The notes under the pieces: model-generated
What the model was told of the DNA's origin: nothing
What the model saw: only the letters and a program-made list of their open reading frames with translations
The model's database searches: none
In this document: positions 1,531-45,597 of the stretch, in pieces
How the letters are laid out: each line of letters begins with the position of its first letter
Numbering within the stretch: the first letter of the stretch is position 1
Assembly (NCBI GenBank): GCA_031262065.1
Contig: JAISIK010000005.1
Span: 1 to 46,605 of the forward strand
Length of the DNA stretch: 46,605 nt
Source of the DNA: Oscillospiraceae bacterium
GTDB lineage: Bacteria > Bacillota > Clostridia > Oscillospirales > Oscillospiraceae
Direction: 5' to 3'
Position numbers and translations under genes: made by a program

Positions 1531-1538
1531 TCTCATAG

Positions 1539-1668
1539 TAGTTCCAATTAAAAATCGCTACTGCGATTTTTATAGCGCCGCAGCGCGTTTGGAACTCATG
1601 AGACGGCACAGCGCCAACGGCGATGTGTGGCGCGTAGCGCCAGCATTCCAGATTTCCAATTTGGAATG
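1539..1668 (-). repeat. 130-bp nested-palindrome intergenic repeat, copy 1
   Basis: Reverse complement matches 37032-37161 over 130 bp with only a handful of differences. Contains aaaaatcgc-agta-gcgattttt and other inverted repeats. Begins just after the proS stop. Confidence 0.9.
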
Positions 1669-1672
1669 CGTA

Positions 1673-3109
1673 TCAGTAGGCGACGCCCCAGTAGATCATC
1701 TTCTTTGCGGGTTTGCCGCATATGGCGCAGTGCTCGCCGAGATGCTCCTGCGCAAAGGGCATGCAGCGGCTGGACATCCCCGCCTCCTCCTTCATGCGCA
1801 GCTCGCAGGCTTCCTCGCCGCACCACATGGTCTTGATAAAGCCGCCGTTTTCCTCTTGCAAACGCTTTGCCTCCTCCAAACTCTGCGCGGGGAAGGTGTT
1901 GTCGGTGAGGTTCTTCTTCGCCTTGTCAAAAAGCCCCTGCTGCACCGCCTCCAGAAGCTGCGGCACAAGCGTTTCCAACTCGTCCAAGGCAACAAAGCGC
2001 TTTTCGCCGCTGTCGCGGCGCACCAACACGCACTGCGCCTGTTCAATATCCTTCGGTCCCAACTCTAAGCGCAGCGGTACGCCCTTCATCTCATGCTCGG
2101 CAAACTTCCAGCCGGGGCTCTGCTCCGACTCGTCAATTTTCACGCGAATGCCTGCGTCCTTCAGGCGATTTGCTACCGCGCGAGCCGCATCCAACACGCC
2201 CTCTTTATGCATCGCAACGGGGATAACCACCAACTGCGTCGGCGCAACGCGGGGCGGAAGCACCAGCCCGTTATTGTCGCCATGGGTCATGATAATGCCA
2301 CCGATGAGGCGGGTGGACAGCCCCCACGAGGTTTGGAAGGGGAAGGACTGCTGGTTGTTTTTATCGGTATAGTGAATATCAAAGGCGCGGGAGAAGCCGT
2401 CGCCGAAGTAGTGCGACGTGCCTGCCTGCAGCGCCTTGCGGTCGTGCATCATGCACTCGATTGCATAGGTACGCTCCGCGCCGGAGAATTTCTCCTTATC
2501 GGTCTTCTGCCCGCGGACGACCGGCATCGCCAAATAGTTTTCGCAGAAGTCTGCATAGACGTCGAGCTGCTGCTCCGTCTCGCGCATGGCTTCTTCCTGC
2601 GAGGCGTGCATGGTGTGACCCTCCTGCCAGAGGAACTCTCTGTGGCGCAGGAAGGGGCGGCTGGTCTTTTCCCAGCGAAGGACGCTGCACCACTGGTTAT
2701 ACAGCTTCGGCAAGTCGCGCCACGAATGGATGATATAGCGGAAATGCTCGCAGAAGAGCGTTTCCGAAGTCGGGCGAATGCACAGGCGCTCTTCGAGCTT
2801 GTCCTGCCCGCCGACCGTGACCCACGCGCACTCCGGCGCAAAGCCTTCCACGTGATCCTTTTCCTTTTGCAGAAGAGACTCGGGAATCAGCATCGGCATA
2901 TAGAGATTCTCGTGCCCTTTTTCCTTGAACATGGCGTCGAGAATTCTCTGGATATTCTCCCAAATCGCATAGCCGTATGGCCTGTAAATAAACATGCCCT
3001 TCACGCCGGAGTAGTCAATCAGCTCCGCTTTTTTGCACACATCGGTGTACCATTGGGCAAAATCCGTCTCCATATCGGTAATTTGTTCTACCTTTTTATC
3101 CTTTGCCAT
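1673..3109 (-). CDS. proS: Prolyl-tRNA synthetase (shorter ProS type)
   Basis: 478 aa with class II aaRS motifs ([67 protein letters not shown]) and the ProRS C-terminal extension. Confidence 0.95.
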
Positions 3110-17002: not shown

Positions 17003-17125
17003 CAATTTTTGCCGTTTTTACTAAAAATATTTTAGGTAAAATCTTCTCTGGGCGCAAAGCCGCCCGCAAATTGCACAATCCTGCGCCGAGGAAACGAATC
17101 CACGTTGGGGTATGTTGCGCTGAAC

Positions 17126-17239
17126 TTGCGTTGAAGTGCGGTGGTGCAGCAGTGATGATGCAGCGCACTTGCGGCGAAGTGCGGTGACGCTGCGGTGATG
17201 ATGCAGCGCACTTGCGGCAAAGCTGCAGAGACGTTGCGG
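17126..17239. repeat. Tandem repeat, 43-bp period, about 2.6 copies
   Basis: ttgcgttgaagtgcggtggtgcagcagtgatgatgcagcgcac (17126-17168), ttgcggcgaagtgcggtgacgctgcggtgatgatgcagcgcac (17169-17211), partial ttgcggcaaagctgcagagacgttgcgg (17212-17239). Confidence 0.8.
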
Positions 17240-17406: not shown

Positions 17407-18099
17407 CTATGGCTGCGCGGCGGCAGCATCGTATATCTCGCAGAAACGCGCAATGATGACAGCAACCTCCGCCCTTGTAACTCTTTTCTGCGGGGAAGGC
17501 AGGAGTGTGTCGCCCTCGCTATAAATCTCTAACAAGCCTTCCTCCGCGCACCACTGTATTGCCTCAACCGCCCAAGAGTCCCATACATTCTCTTCTAAAA
17601 AGTCAAATTCTGTGCGTTTGGAAGAAGCCACCCCGCTGTATCGTGCAAATCGGAAGAGTGCCTCTACAAACTGCTCTCTTGTTGCAGTGCTTTGTCCATC
17701 AAAGTACCACATTATGCCCCCGGGCGGGAGATTCGGGTTAAACTCAACCATGATAGGCATGACAATGTAATATCCCAGCGCCCAGTATATCGCGTCTTTC
17801 GCCCAACTGCTCGGTTTGCCGGGATCAAAATCAAAAAATATTTCCTCAGGATCAGGAGGCGCAGGCTGCCCGCAAAGCCTCCATAATACGACCGCCAGCC
17901 TCTCGCGGGTAAGACGCCCTGCCGGGTTGAAGCCTCTCACGCCGTCTCCCTCCATGAGACCGCGTTCTATAACATAGTCTACCGAATCCGCATACCACAC
18001 TTTCTTCGGCGCGTTTGCGCGAACAATCATCAGAACTGCCAAGGAAGCCAGCAACAGCGCAAGCACCGCGATACTCAGAATTACCCATTTCTTCTTCAT
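17407..18099 (-). CDS. SLH-only protein with N-terminal membrane anchor (paralog A)
   Basis: N-terminal hydrophobic anchor; three SLH-like repeats with LTRERLAVVLWRL, ATREQFVEALFRFAR, VTRAEVAVIIARFCE. Confidence 0.85.
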   Translation of the reverse strand: MKKKWVILSIAVLALLLASLAVLMIVRANAPKKVWYADSVDYVIERGLMEGDGVRGFNPAGRLTRERLAVVLWRLCGQPAPPDPEEIFFDFDPGKPSSWAKDAIYWALGYYIVMPIMVEFNPNLPPGGIMWYFDGQSTATREQFVEALFRFARYSGVASSKRTEFDFLEENVWDSWAVEAIQWCAEEGLLEIYSEGDTLLPSPQKRVTRAEVAVIIARFCEIYDAAAAQP

Positions 18100-18131
18100 T
18101 GTGTTCCTCCCTCCTTATACATTACTTGTCT

Positions 18132-18158
18132 GCGGGCTGCCGAACATCGACAGCCCGC
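18132..18158 (-). terminator. Hairpin between SLH paralogs B and A
   Basis: gcgggctg / cagcccgc; the same hairpin family occurs at 19655-19681 and 17336-17368. Confidence 0.5.
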
Positions 18159-18183
18159 TTTCTGCACTGCAATATAATTCTCG

Positions 18184-18855
18184 CTATGGCTGTACTGCGG
18201 CGGTATCGTATAGTTCGCAGAAACGCATAAGCATAGCAGCTGCCTCGGCGCGCGTGATATTTCTTCTATGGTCAAGCAGCAGCGCGCCGTTATCGGCAGA
18301 GCCGCGGAGAATTCCTACGGCAACTGCCCACTGCAGTTCCTCCGCCTCCCAAGAGAAAACCTTATCCGCGTCTTGAAATACCGACAGATCCGCACGCTGC
18401 TCTGTCGCACTCCCGCAATATTGCGCGAGGCGGAACAGCATACCCACAAACGCAACCCGTCTCACATTTTCCTCCCCGTCAAAAGCCCAATACGGCTCGA
18501 AAGACGGTTCCGGAGCCATGCAGAAATCGGAGAAAACACCCGTCGGGTAACCCCAAGTCGCCGCCTGCCAGTACCACTCTTCTCCTGATAGGTCGTCGTA
18601 GGTATTGGAGTCTGCCGCCATACGGGGCGAACCGCAAATTCTCCAAGCTACAGTCGCCGCCATTGCGTGGCTCACCAGCGCATCGGGCGCAAATTCGCCT
18701 CCGCCAACCCCCACCATGAGCTCTTGATTTGTAACATAGTCTACCGGAATCTTATACCATGCGCCTTCCGCCACGTCTGTATAGGCGTACGCTATAACTG
18801 CTAAGGAAGACAGCACGAGCGCAAGCGCCAGAGCGATAGATATCAAGCGTTTCAT
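18184..18855 (-). CDS. SLH-domain protein (divergent paralog B)
   Basis: Signal-like N-terminus MKRLISIALALALVLSSLAVIAYA; TDVAEGAWYKIPVDYV and ITRAEAAAMLMRFCELYDTAAVQP match SLH organisation and the C-terminus of the paralogs. Confidence 0.8.
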   Translation of the reverse strand: MKRLISIALALALVLSSLAVIAYAYTDVAEGAWYKIPVDYVTNQELMVGVGGGEFAPDALVSHAMAATVAWRICGSPRMAADSNTYDDLSGEEWYWQAATWGYPTGVFSDFCMAPEPSFEPYWAFDGEENVRRVAFVGMLFRLAQYCGSATEQRADLSVFQDADKVFSWEAEELQWAVAVGILRGSADNGALLLDHRRNITRAEAAAMLMRFCELYDTAAVQP

Positions 18856-18880
18856 AGTCTTTCCTCCTATCAAATATCAT

Positions 18881-18920
18881 CTTGCCTGCAGATTTGCCGT
18901 GATTGTCGCCTCTCCGCCGG
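18881..18920 (-). pseudogene. Relic of the 3' end of the SLH-peptidase gene
   Basis: cttgcctgcagatttgccgtgattgtcgcctctccgccgg aligns with cttgtctgcagatttaccgtgattgtcgccccgccgg at 20423-20459, the 3' end of the gene at 20419-22245. Confidence 0.6.
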
Positions 18921-18931
18921 TTCAACTTGCG

Positions 18932-19621
18932 CTATGGCTGTGTTACAGTAGCATCGTATATCTCGCAGAAACGCGCAATGATGACAGCAGCCTCCGCTCT
19001 TGTAACTTCTTTCTGTGGGGAAGGCAGGAGTGTGTCGCCCTCGCTATAAATCTCCAATAAGCCTTCCTCCGCGCACCACAGTATTGCCTCCGCTACCCAA
19101 GTGCCCCACAAATTTGCTTCTAAATTGCCAAATTCTGCGCGTTTGGAAGAAGCCACCCCACTGTATCGTGCAAATCGGAAGAGTGCCTCTACAAGCTGCA
19201 CTCTTGTTGCAGCACTCTGTCCTTCGAAGGTTCCAAATATGCCCCCGGGCGGGAGATTCGGGTCATACTCAAACCAGATAGCATCGATTATGTACTTTCC
19301 CATCGCCCACTGTGTCGCTTCTAGCGCCCAACTACTCGGTTCGCCAACAAAAAATGGAGGCATTTCATCAGGAGCAGGAGGCGCAGGCTGCCCGCAAAGC
19401 CTCCATAATACGACCGCCAGCCTCTCGCGGGTGAGAAGCCCTTCCGGGTTGAAGTCTCCCGTGCCGTCTTCCTCCATGAGACCGCGTTCTATAACATAGT
19501 CTACCGAATCCGCATACCACACTTTCTTCGGCGCGTTTGCGCGAACAATCATCAGAACCGCCAAGGAAGCCAGCAACAGCGCAAGCACCGCGATACTCGG
19601 AATCACCCATTTCTTCTTCAT
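18932..19621 (-). CDS. SLH-only protein with N-terminal membrane anchor (paralog C)
   Basis: Near-identical N- and C-termini to paralogs A and D; variable middle. Confidence 0.85.
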   Translation of the reverse strand: MKKKWVIPSIAVLALLLASLAVLMIVRANAPKKVWYADSVDYVIERGLMEEDGTGDFNPEGLLTRERLAVVLWRLCGQPAPPAPDEMPPFFVGEPSSWALEATQWAMGKYIIDAIWFEYDPNLPPGGIFGTFEGQSAATRVQLVEALFRFARYSGVASSKRAEFGNLEANLWGTWVAEAILWCAEEGLLEIYSEGDTLLPSPQKEVTRAEAAVIIARFCEIYDATVTQP

Positions 19622-19654
19622 TGTGTTCCTCCCTCCTTATACATGAACTTGTCT

Positions 19655-19681
19655 GCGGGCTGCCGCTTTTCGGCAGCCCGC
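19655..19681 (-). terminator. Hairpin between SLH paralogs D and C
   Basis: gcgggctgccg-ctttt-cggcagcccgc. Confidence 0.6.
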
Positions 19682-19706
19682 TTTCTGCACTGCAATATAA
19701 TTCTCG

Positions 19707-20396
19707 CTATGGTTGTGCGACAGCAGCATCGTATATCTCGCAGAAACGTGCAATGATGACAGCAGCCTCCGCTCTTGTAACTTCTTTCTGTGGGGAAGGC
19801 AGGAGTGTGTCGCCCTCGCTATAAATCTCCAATAAGCCCTCCTCCGCGCACCACTGTGTTGTCTCAGCCGCCCAAGAGGAGAATAGACGATCTGAAAAGT
19901 CAAATTCTGCGCGTTTGGAAGAAGCCACCCCACTATATCGTGCAAATCGGAAGAGTGCCTCTACAAGCTGCTCTCTTGTTGCCGCGCTCTGTCCTTCAAA
20001 GAACCCCAATATGCCCCCGGGCGGTTCATTCGGGTTATACTCATGCATGATAGGCATGATAATGGAGTATCCCAGCGCCCAGTATGTCGCGTCTTTCGCC
20101 CAACTGCTCGGTTCGCCGTAGTCAAATAAACGAAATATTTCCTCAGGATCAGGAGGCGTAGGTTGCCCGCAAAGCCTCCATAATACGACCGCCAGCCTCT
20201 CGCGGGTGAGAAGCCCTTCCGGGTCGAAGTCTCCCGTGCCGTCTTCCTCCATGAGACCGCGGCTCATAACGTAGTCTACCGAATCCGCATACCACACTTT
20301 CTTCGGCGCGTTTGCGCGAACAATCATCAGAACCGCCAAGGAAGCCAGCAGCAGCGCAAGCACCAGTATACCGGGAATTACCCATTTCTTCTTCAT
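19707..20396 (-). CDS. SLH-only protein with N-terminal membrane anchor (paralog D)
   Basis: Same architecture as A and C. Confidence 0.85.
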   Translation of the reverse strand: MKKKWVIPGILVLALLLASLAVLMIVRANAPKKVWYADSVDYVMSRGLMEEDGTGDFDPEGLLTRERLAVVLWRLCGQPTPPDPEEIFRLFDYGEPSSWAKDATYWALGYSIIMPIMHEYNPNEPPGGILGFFEGQSAATREQLVEALFRFARYSGVASSKRAEFDFSDRLFSSWAAETTQWCAEEGLLEIYSEGDTLLPSPQKEVTRAEAAVIIARFCEIYDAAVAQP

Positions 20397-35944: not shown

Positions 35945-37027
35945 ATGAAAGCGTACGTTGTCGAAAACGAAGCCCTCAACTACAATATCGAAACCCTGCT
36001 GGAACGGGCGAACGGCGTTCCCATTTGGGCTGTCCTGAAGGGTAACGGCTATGGTATCGGCGCTGTGCCTTTGGCGCGCCGCCTGCGTGAACACGGCATT
36101 GACCGCTTTTGCGTTACGGAGCTTTGCGAGGCGCAGCTCCTGCGGGAAAACGGCTTCGATTCTGCGGCGATTCTCATGCTGCGCCAGACGAGCTGCGAGG
36201 AGGAACTCAAGCAGCTTTTGGATTTGCGCGTGATTTTAACCGTCGGTTCAAGCCAAAGCGCCGCAGCTGCGAACAAAGTTGCTGCTGCGCGCGCGCAAAA
36301 GGCGCAGGTGCATCTCAAAATCGACACAGGCATGGGGCGCTTCGGCTTCCTGCCGACGCAAGTTGCCGATTTGCTTGCGGTGTACAAACTGGAAAACCTC
36401 GCAATTTGCGGCGTTTACACGCACTTTAACTGTGCCTTCTTCAACGAGAAGCTGACGCAGGAAGAATTTGCGCTGTTTATGCAGACAGTCGAGGCGATTC
36501 GCGCAGCGGGCATGGATGCAGGGACGGTACATTGCTGCAATTCGGCAGCCTTTCTGCGCCACCAAGGCATGCACTGCGACGGCGTGCGCATCGGCTCTGC
36601 GATTTTAGGCAGGATGCCCTTTACCACAACGCTCAAGCCGATTGGCTACGCAGAAGCCTGCATCGACGAGATTCGCGAACTTCCCAAAGGACACAGCACG
36701 GGCTACGCAGCCCTCTGGAAAGCGAAAACGCCGACGCGCGTTGCAATCGTTCCGATTGGCTGGCACAACGGCTTCCGCGTGCAATATCAGTTGGGAACGC
36801 CGCGTTTTCGCGATGCGCTGCGTATGATTTACGGCGGCGTATGCGGCGTCTTCCGCCGCAGCACTGCGCAGATTGACGTCGGCGGGCATCGCTGCCCGCT
36901 CATCGGGCAGGCGGGGATGCTGCATATAGCGGTTAATGTGACAGGTATCGACTGCAAACCCGGCGATATTGCAAGGATTGCCATCAACCCCCTGCATTTG
37001 AAGGGCATGGAGATAGCGTATCGCTAA
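35945..37027 (+). CDS. alr: Alanine racemase-like PLP enzyme (divergent)
   Basis: VPIWAVLKGNGYGIGAVPLARRLREHGIDRFCVTELCEA (PLP lysine region), LKIDTGMGRFGF, GVYTHFNCA, CNSAAFL, DGVRIGSAILG, TGYAALWKAKTPTRVAIVPIGWHNGF. Confidence 0.88.
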   Translation: MKAYVVENEALNYNIETLLERANGVPIWAVLKGNGYGIGAVPLARRLREHGIDRFCVTELCEAQLLRENGFDSAAILMLRQTSCEEELKQLLDLRVILTVGSSQSAAAANKVAAARAQKAQVHLKIDTGMGRFGFLPTQVADLLAVYKLENLAICGVYTHFNCAFFNEKLTQEEFALFMQTVEAIRAAGMDAGTVHCCNSAAFLRHQGMHCDGVRIGSAILGRMPFTTTLKPIGYAEACIDEIRELPKGHSTGYAALWKAKTPTRVAIVPIGWHNGFRVQYQLGTPRFRDALRMIYGGVCGVFRRSTAQIDVGGHRCPLIGQAGMLHIAVNVTGIDCKPGDIARIAINPLHLKGMEIAYR

Positions 37028-37031
37028 TACT

Positions 37032-37161
37032 CACTCCAAATTGAAAATTTGGAATGTTGTCGCTACGCGCCACACATCGCCGTTGGCGCTGTGCCGTCTC
37101 ATAAGTTCCACACGCGCTGCGGCGCTATAAAAATCGCAGTAGCGATTTTTAATTGGAACTA
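37032..37161 (+). repeat. 130-bp nested-palindrome intergenic repeat, copy 2
   Basis: Inverted copy of 1539-1668; begins just after the alr stop. Confidence 0.9.
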
Positions 37162-37218
37162 GTATAAATCGGCAACGTCCTTCGCCGCCGATAAATCGAA
37201 ATTATACTATACAATATC

Positions 37219-37256
37219 AAAAGGTCGCAGAAACACGATTGTTTCTGCGACCTTTT
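37219..37256. terminator. Bidirectional intrinsic terminator between alr and the GH94 gene
   Basis: aaaaggtcgcagaaaca-cgat-tgtttctgcgacctttt. Confidence 0.85.
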
Positions 37257-37270
37257 GTATTGCTTATAAA

Positions 37271-44303: not shown

Positions 44304-44478
44304 GTCAGGGGCGCGTCGCTACTCCATTTCCATAGCGGCGCAGCCACCGTAAAAAAGGAGGAACCCCCGCCCGGCCGGCGGTGCGGCAGTGTGGAGACCT
44401 GCCGTAATGTCTGCAAGGTTTTGCTCTTTGCAGATGAGGCAGCGCATGGCGAAGGCGGCGCTGTTACGGTCACATCGT

Positions 44479-45597
44479 ATGGCATATGTAACCCTTAAGA
44501 ATGTGAAAAAAATCTACCCGGGCAAGGTTGTGGCGGTGCAAGACTTCAATCTGGAAATTCGGGATAAGGAATTTGTCGTTTTGGTAGGGCCGTCCGGCTG
44601 CGGAAAATCCACCACCCTTCGCATGATTGCGGGGCTGGAGGACATCACCGAGGGCGATTTGTTTATCGGGGAAGAACGCATGAACGACGTCGCGCCGAAG
44701 GATCGCGACATTGCCATGGTTTTCCAGAATTACGCGCTCTACCCGCATATGACGGTGTACGAGAATATGGCGTTTGCGCTGAAACTGCGCAGAGCGCCAA
44801 AGGCGGAAATCGACAAAAAGGTTCGCGAGGCTGCCGAAATTTTGGATATTACCTCCTATCTCGACCGCAAGCCCAAGGCACTGTCCGGCGGTCAGCGCCA
44901 GCGCGTGGCAATCGGTCGCGCGATTGTGCGTGAACCGCAGGTCTTCCTGATGGACGAACCGCTATCGAATTTGGACGCCAAGCTCAGAAACCAAATGCGT
45001 GCGGAGATTATCAAGCTGCGCCACCGCATCGATACCACCTTTGTCTATGTGACCCACGACCAAACGGAGGCAATGACCCTTGGCGACCGCATCGTTATCA
45101 TGAAAGACGGATTTATTCAGCAAATCGGCACGCCCCAAGAGGTCTTTAACCACCCCGCGAACGTCTTTGTCGCAGGCTTCATCGGCTCTCCGCAGATGAA
45201 TCTTTTCGATGCGCAGCTGCGTAAAGACGATGAAAAGTATTTCGTCGAGGTTGCAGGGGCAAGTTTCGCACTGTCCGAGCGCATTGCAGCGAAGCTGCGT
45301 CGGGACAGCGAAGGCGAAGTGATCGTCGGCATTCGCCCGGAGCATATTCGCATCTGCGCGCAAGAGGGCGACGATACGATGAGCGCCGCGGTCGAGGTTT
45401 CGGAGATGATGGGAAGCGAAATTCACCTGCATCTGCGCGCGCAGGACAAAGAAATTGTGCTCCGCGTGAACACCACCGAGCTTCCCGAGGCATATCGCGC
45501 GGGCATTCCCTACGGCACACAGCTGCATTTCACATTCCCCGGCGATTTGCTGCACCTGTTCGATAAAGAATCGCAGAAGAATCTGATTGGCGAATAG
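44479..45597 (+). CDS. Sugar ABC transporter ATP-binding protein (MsmK/UgpC-like)
   Basis: MAYVTLKNVKKIYPGKVVAVQDFNLEI, GPSGCGKSTTLRMIAGLE, LSGGQRQRVAIGRAIVREPQVFLMDEPLSNLDAKLR, C-terminal TOBE-like region. Start is uncertain. Confidence 0.93.
   Translation: MAYVTLKNVKKIYPGKVVAVQDFNLEIRDKEFVVLVGPSGCGKSTTLRMIAGLEDITEGDLFIGEERMNDVAPKDRDIAMVFQNYALYPHMTVYENMAFALKLRRAPKAEIDKKVREAAEILDITSYLDRKPKALSGGQRQRVAIGRAIVREPQVFLMDEPLSNLDAKLRNQMRAEIIKLRHRIDTTFVYVTHDQTEAMTLGDRIVIMKDGFIQQIGTPQEVFNHPANVFVAGFIGSPQMNLFDAQLRKDDEKYFVEVAGASFALSERIAAKLRRDSEGEVIVGIRPEHIRICAQEGDDTMSAAVEVSEMMGSEIHLHLRAQDKEIVLRVNTTELPEAYRAGIPYGTQLHFTFPGDLLHLFDKESQKNLIGE

Follow-up and report, generated by a model that had tools for sequence, protein, structure and literature searches.

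A probable family of small, structured, MITE-like elements flanked by TNA duplications and often found in stop codons of Oscillospiraceae

Introduction

Small mobile repeats shape bacterial 3' untranslated regions, and several families of them have been described. ERIC, NEMIS/Correia and RUP are bacterial MITEs, mostly with TA at their termini (PMC2229807). They are palindromic, multi-copy, intergenic repeats of less than 200 bp with highly base-paired transcripts and target duplications (PMC2229807), and the element described here shares all of these properties. It differs from them in its TNA duplications, its TACT ends, its insertion into stop codons and its host phyla, and in the retention of one fold across about 50 subfamilies despite replaced stems. 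YPAL/RU-2 of Yersinia (168 bp) likewise contains internal inverted repeats and does not require a terminal TA, but it is enterobacterial, and its target duplications measure 3–26 bp, lie near dyads and have no fixed TNA sequence (PMC2229807). The bcr1 and other BCR repeats resemble the element in being mobile, multi-copy repeats (100–400 bp) with possibly non-standard mobility, while having a TTTAT motif instead of TNA and being confined to the Bacillus cereus group (PMC6542083). REP/BIME sequences with their RAYT proteins are, like the element, palindromic, multi-copy and intergenic, with an internal stem mismatch; the element has 3-bp target duplications, another size and architecture, and no RAYT match in its host genome.

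No description of the family was found in openly licensed papers, nor of any element of this sort in gut Clostridia, and the family is apparently undescribed so far. It is a new and widespread family, ordinary in kind, as a small non-autonomous element, and unusual in its target rule, its stem turnover and its missing partner. It is abundant, follows a clear-cut target rule that can be put to the test (TNA, often a stop codon) and combines extreme stem turnover with a fixed fold. The element also offers a marker with which to look for the missing enzyme. For housekeeping genes, proS and alr among them, it amounts to a natural experiment in what about 140 structured nucleotides inserted after a stop codon do.

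Results and Discussion

The two copies in the window

The window is the whole stretch of DNA that was analysed, 46,605 nucleotides of contig JAISIK010000005.1 from an Oscillospiraceae bacterium. An earlier note on it had reported a 130-bp repeat with nested palindromes in two places. The match grows to 142 nt with 93% identity (arms 1535–1676 and 37024–37165), and each copy, treated as single-stranded DNA, folds 6 to 9 standard deviations below dinucleotide shuffles. The first copy (TACG...ACTA, 137 bp, positions 1536–1672, minus strand) lies within the stop codon of proS, the prolyl-tRNA synthetase gene (1673–3109, minus strand), whose C-terminal domain is intact to the final residue, with the Pfam domain ProRS-C_1 reaching that residue. 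The second (TACT...AGTA, 137 bp, positions 37028–37164, plus strand) lies within the stop codon of alr, the alanine racemase gene (35945–37027, plus strand), in which Pfam Ala_racemase_N and Ala_racemase_C are both present. The note had placed the copies directly after a stop codon; the gene-end location stands, with the refinement that the stop codon itself is the left copy of a 3-bp target duplication. For proS this is TGA (1673–1675, minus strand), repeated to the right of the element at 1533–1535 (minus strand), and for alr it is TAA (37025–37027, plus strand), repeated at 37165–37167 (plus strand). Each copy sits between a stop codon and a separate, downstream terminator-like hairpin, at 1490–1521 on the minus strand (likely proS's own terminator) and at 37218–37257 on the plus strand.

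The second copy begins with a stem 1 hairpin (CACTCCAAATT/AATTTGGAATG, 37032–37056, plus strand). The conserved core CGTCTCAT (37095–37102, plus strand) is predicted to be unpaired and is followed by a three-way junction (37104–37161, plus strand), in which stem A (AGTTCCA/TTGGAACT) surrounds a CGCGC-loop-GCGC hairpin and a hairpin flanked by A4 and T4.

Seven full copies are present in the host genome (G000; 1.58 Mb, 74 contigs), together with a further copy that is broken up by other palindromic repeats, and some small number of fragments. The two window copies are therefore neither the only ones in the genome nor a chance match. A second palindromic repeat of about 65–70 bp (ACTAAAGCACCCC...GGGGTGTCAGTTGT) occurs in the same genome (loci L008 on contig C22 and L011 on C36), twice inside one element copy and once in another.

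Boundaries and target site

Further elements for comparison were taken from genomes of the same genus and, by means of a degenerate core pattern, from named genomes. Most are 130–170 bp long, non-coding and multi-copy. In the alignment of related elements, TACT...AGTA is bounded on both sides by TNA. Identical TNA triplets flank 153 of the 171 parsed copies, where independent middle bases would give 59, and the flank parser gives no reward for matching flanks. These flank statistics show a 3-bp TNA target-site duplication on insertion. A test of the family as a TA-target MITE of the ERIC, RUP or NEMIS kind failed, since the flanks are TNA triplets whose middle base is the same on both sides. 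The target extends to TYTNARA, with T at -5 (92/152), C or T at -4 and A at +5; read on the CGTCTCAT strand, TRA outnumbers TYA 126 to 27. TACT and AGTA form terminal inverted repeats at the two ends, and a longer likeness between the ends is found only inside a subfamily. The element thus shares with bacterial MITEs its short, non-coding, multi-copy nature, its target-site duplication and its terminal inverted repeats.

Several unusual copies were noticed. At L086, two tandem copies have one TTA in common. A minimal derivative of about 29 bp (L285, contig C50 of G012, position 832) reads TCA-TACTAAAGTTCGATAATTGAATTTAGTA-TCA and retains both ends and the duplication. Longer variants of 219 nt (L193 and L194), of which genome G008 has several copies, carry an extra hairpin block in CGTCT|CATGCAG, and a 202-nt copy parsed with L048 has an extra hairpin block ahead of the A-run.

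Fold and subfamilies

A structure alignment of 37 diverse copies was folded with RNAalifold. The consensus contains the stem 1 hairpin, a second hairpin and, after CGTCTCAT, the three-way junction. Examined by covariance for compensatory changes, as the earlier note had proposed, 23 of the 37 base pairs change on both sides. Paired cells amount to 96.7%, against 79.1% in shuffled and 38–46% in slid alignments, and the covariation score is 0.509 against 0.178. Fifty subfamilies less than 85% alike have this fold in common, with the hairpins, CGTCTCATRC and the three-way junction, although most stem sequences have been swapped through two-sided compensatory changes. Invariant or nearly so are the TACT/AGTA ends, CGTCTCAT, ACGC...GCTAT and the A4/T4 runs. 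A divergent branch retains TACT, CGTCTCATAC and the end, having lost the GCGCTATAAAA block.

Distribution

Searching named genomes with the degenerate core pattern gave at least 119 stretches, mostly in MAGs of Oscillospiraceae and Clostridia. With a covariance model, elements were found in 20 of 99 relatives, including 15 of the 17 same-genus genomes and a handful of further Oscillospiraceae genera; among these 99, none was found in the other sampled families of the order. Twelve named genomes hold between 2 and 94 copies each. The draft genome of Oscillibacter valericigenes An890, an isolate rich in copies, contains 12. Many copies in one of them (G108) have one identical model score, pointing to near-identical copies that moved recently. 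A MAG labelled Pyramidobacter (phylum Synergistota) contains 26–27 copies, and four more genomes of Pyramidobacter's family, as assigned by database taxonomy, contain 1–9 diverged copies each, several with TGA/TGA flanks. The elements of this Synergistota family make up a divergent branch. The family spans genera, and probably phyla too. Nothing relevant was found in plasmid and phage collections; element copies are present on three IMG/VR viral contigs (L154–L156), all from one sample. Orphan CGTCTCATRC sites in genomes G012, G014, G011 and G010 are mostly chance sites inside genes, the remainder being elements or truncated copies.

Association with stop codons

For analysis of insertion positions, the element and one TNA were removed in silico and genes were then called by codon usage. 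These calls come from our own codon-usage caller, not from annotation, and place 19 insertions inside called genes. Of the 126 non-coding insertions, 43 coincide exactly with a TAA or TGA stop codon. If every TNA site in the intergenic interval concerned were equally likely to be chosen, 21.5 would be expected (20.6 with target weighting); a count of 43 was reached in none of 200,000 simulations. An earlier, cruder ORF caller gave 22 such insertions against 13.6 expected (p = 0.002), so the excess is seen with both. At stop-codon insertions the element is in sense orientation to the gene 38 times and antisense 5 times, the CGTCTCAT strand being mostly the gene sense strand. Twelve insertions lie in divergent and 45 in convergent intergenic regions, although TNA sites are about as numerous in the one context as in the other (1134 and 942, respectively, in the surrounding sequences). 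Position and orientation relative to genes are thus not random. Of the earlier suggestion of a mobile palindromic element preferring gene ends, the mobile, gene-end part is borne out by the copy number, the target duplications, the two-fold stop-codon excess and the 38:5 sense bias; in place of the supposed preference for the vicinity of terminators, it is the stop codon, within a TNA target, that is preferred.

TGA and TAA both fit TNA, which makes stop codons target sites. Selection tolerates such insertions since the duplication restores the stop, and the excess could stem from selection, from target choice or from the two together.

Proposed movement and strand asymmetry

These observations are most probably explained by a family of non-autonomous, structured, MITE-like DNA elements that are moved in trans and generate 3-bp TNA duplications. 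Insertion at TNA, in the wider context TYTNARA, would leave the duplicated triplet on either side of the TACT...AGTA ends. With the stop restored, the cost to the gene would be low and insertions may accumulate there, mostly with the CGTCTCAT strand in gene sense; the excess at this position is observed, the cause proposed here is our interpretation. An inserted copy becomes part of the gene's 3' untranslated region and precedes the native terminator. Having no coding capacity, the element must depend on an enzyme acting in trans for its movement.

Because the core is conserved and the stems are independent of sequence, we suggest that a folded single strand is read by the enzyme or by a partner, perhaps the ATGAGACG (minus) strand rather than its complement. 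Indications for single-strand reading are the stems of the roughly 50 subfamilies, replaced yet complementary, and three asymmetries. In a scan for inverted repeats with equal scores for G-T and A-C, about 97% of the pairs were Watson-Crick. Among the others, the ratio of G-T to A-C on the gene-sense strand is 17:30, 12:25 and 7:19 at 99, 95 and 90% redundancy (p = 0.08, 0.05 and 0.03, respectively, for the excess of A-C; p = 0.005 in a smaller first set). In 24 of 76 representatives there is a recurrent C.T or T.C mismatch adjoining CG, which a plain palindrome-repair process should erase and which would break strand symmetry. With DNA parameters, the minus strand is the better folded in 62 of 76 representatives, compared with 57% of shuffles. 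With RNA parameters, minus-strand stability is in excess in 55 of 76, but shuffled sequences match this (70%), so it was set aside as evidence. Together, the G-T and A-C counts, the mismatch and the DNA folding lean towards a folded minus strand, none of them being decisive. It is possible, and we put it forward tentatively, that the element moves as this folded single DNA strand, recognised by its structure and the CGTCTCATRC core, through an enzyme whose class has so far had no known connection with mobile elements. For this enzyme, which would generate TNA duplications of 3 bp, stop codons would be safe sites.

Search for the moving enzyme

No autonomous copy with the same ends was found in 1.08 Mb of genome G106, where only truncated copies were seen; draft MAGs may lose such copies. 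A search by end sequences in G012 gave none either, its orphan ends being small deletion derivatives or truncated copies. Among pairs resembling terminal inverted repeats 0.4–6 kb apart in the fetched loci, the sole candidate was L102, and this was rejected as an autonomous copy: it is an IS5-family insertion that has separate terminal sequences, is flanked by an ATAG duplication and lies in the stem 1 loop of one element copy. That insertion sequence (L102, positions 805–2075) encodes a 325-amino acid transposase and ends in GGCAAYACCGC. The missing transposase is weak evidence, as MAG assemblies often drop multi-copy genes.

The search for REP-type (Y1) or IS transposases that the earlier note had called for returned RAYT, IS5-type and Harbinger-type matches that are absent or patchy, and movers of these three types are disfavoured. 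TNA duplications of 3 bp are known from some IS5 subgroups. Derivation from an insertion sequence of the IS5/PIF-Harbinger type, which we consider unlikely, would agree with the 3-bp TNA duplication and with the likeness of both ends beyond TACT within one subfamily (left TACTCATTCCAAATT, right TACTAGTTCCAATT). However, PF13340 is found in none of 16 element-bearing genomes, PF13359 exceeds the cut-off in only one of 18, PF01609 is absent from G000, G012 and G008, and the IS5-family transposase at L102 belongs to an insertion that has ends of its own.

A possible role for the transcript

The earlier note had also proposed a recruited RNA module of the 3' untranslated region. As a cis-acting RNA (a 3'-UTR stability element, terminator or attenuator), the sequence would have been selected and spread by recombination. 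The strongly conserved fold with compensatory changes, the copies just 3' of stops, and the hairpin between the invariant A4 and T4 runs, which looks like a bidirectional terminator, are in keeping with such a role, but we consider it improbable. G-T is not enriched over A-C on the sense strand; the opposite would be predicted for a sense-strand RNA, and such a role therefore lacks support. Separate terminator-like hairpins lie downstream of both window copies, and many copies fall outside 3' untranslated regions; some lie clear of any stop, between co-directional or divergent genes. No Rfam family matches at gathering score. The target duplications are a mark of insertion, and a cis-acting RNA is refuted as the sole explanation.

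Very improbable is a RAYT-dependent REP/BIME, the REP-like alternative of the earlier note, in which a Y1 (HUH) transposase moves palindromes and leaves no target duplication: the element is palindromic, intergenic and multi-copy and several element-bearing genomes contain RAYT-like genes, but there is no Y1_Tnp match in five others that bear it (G000, the element-rich G008 and G065, G010 and G001), target duplications of 3 bp flank 153 of the 171 copies, the elements measure about 130–170 nt, the GTAG foot was not seen, and palindromes of GTAGGGGCGG type near some copies and within a RAYT gene look like separate REPs, leaving this explanation largely refuted. RAYT-like Y1 proteins are encoded at L257, L259 and L261, and the neighbouring GTAGGGGCGG-type palindromes there resemble separate REP elements.

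Other features of the window

Four tandem genes of about 229 amino acids each (17407–20396) have a period of about 770 bp, with repeat blocks 62–92% alike; an S-layer homology (SLH) domain was found in both of the two that were tested. Short degenerate direct repeats with spacings of 11 and 32 (17112–17197) adjoin these genes. A malK-I RNA motif (RF03069, 134.7 bits) is located at 44304–44484, upstream of a gene for an ABC transporter ATPase with MalK-type domains.
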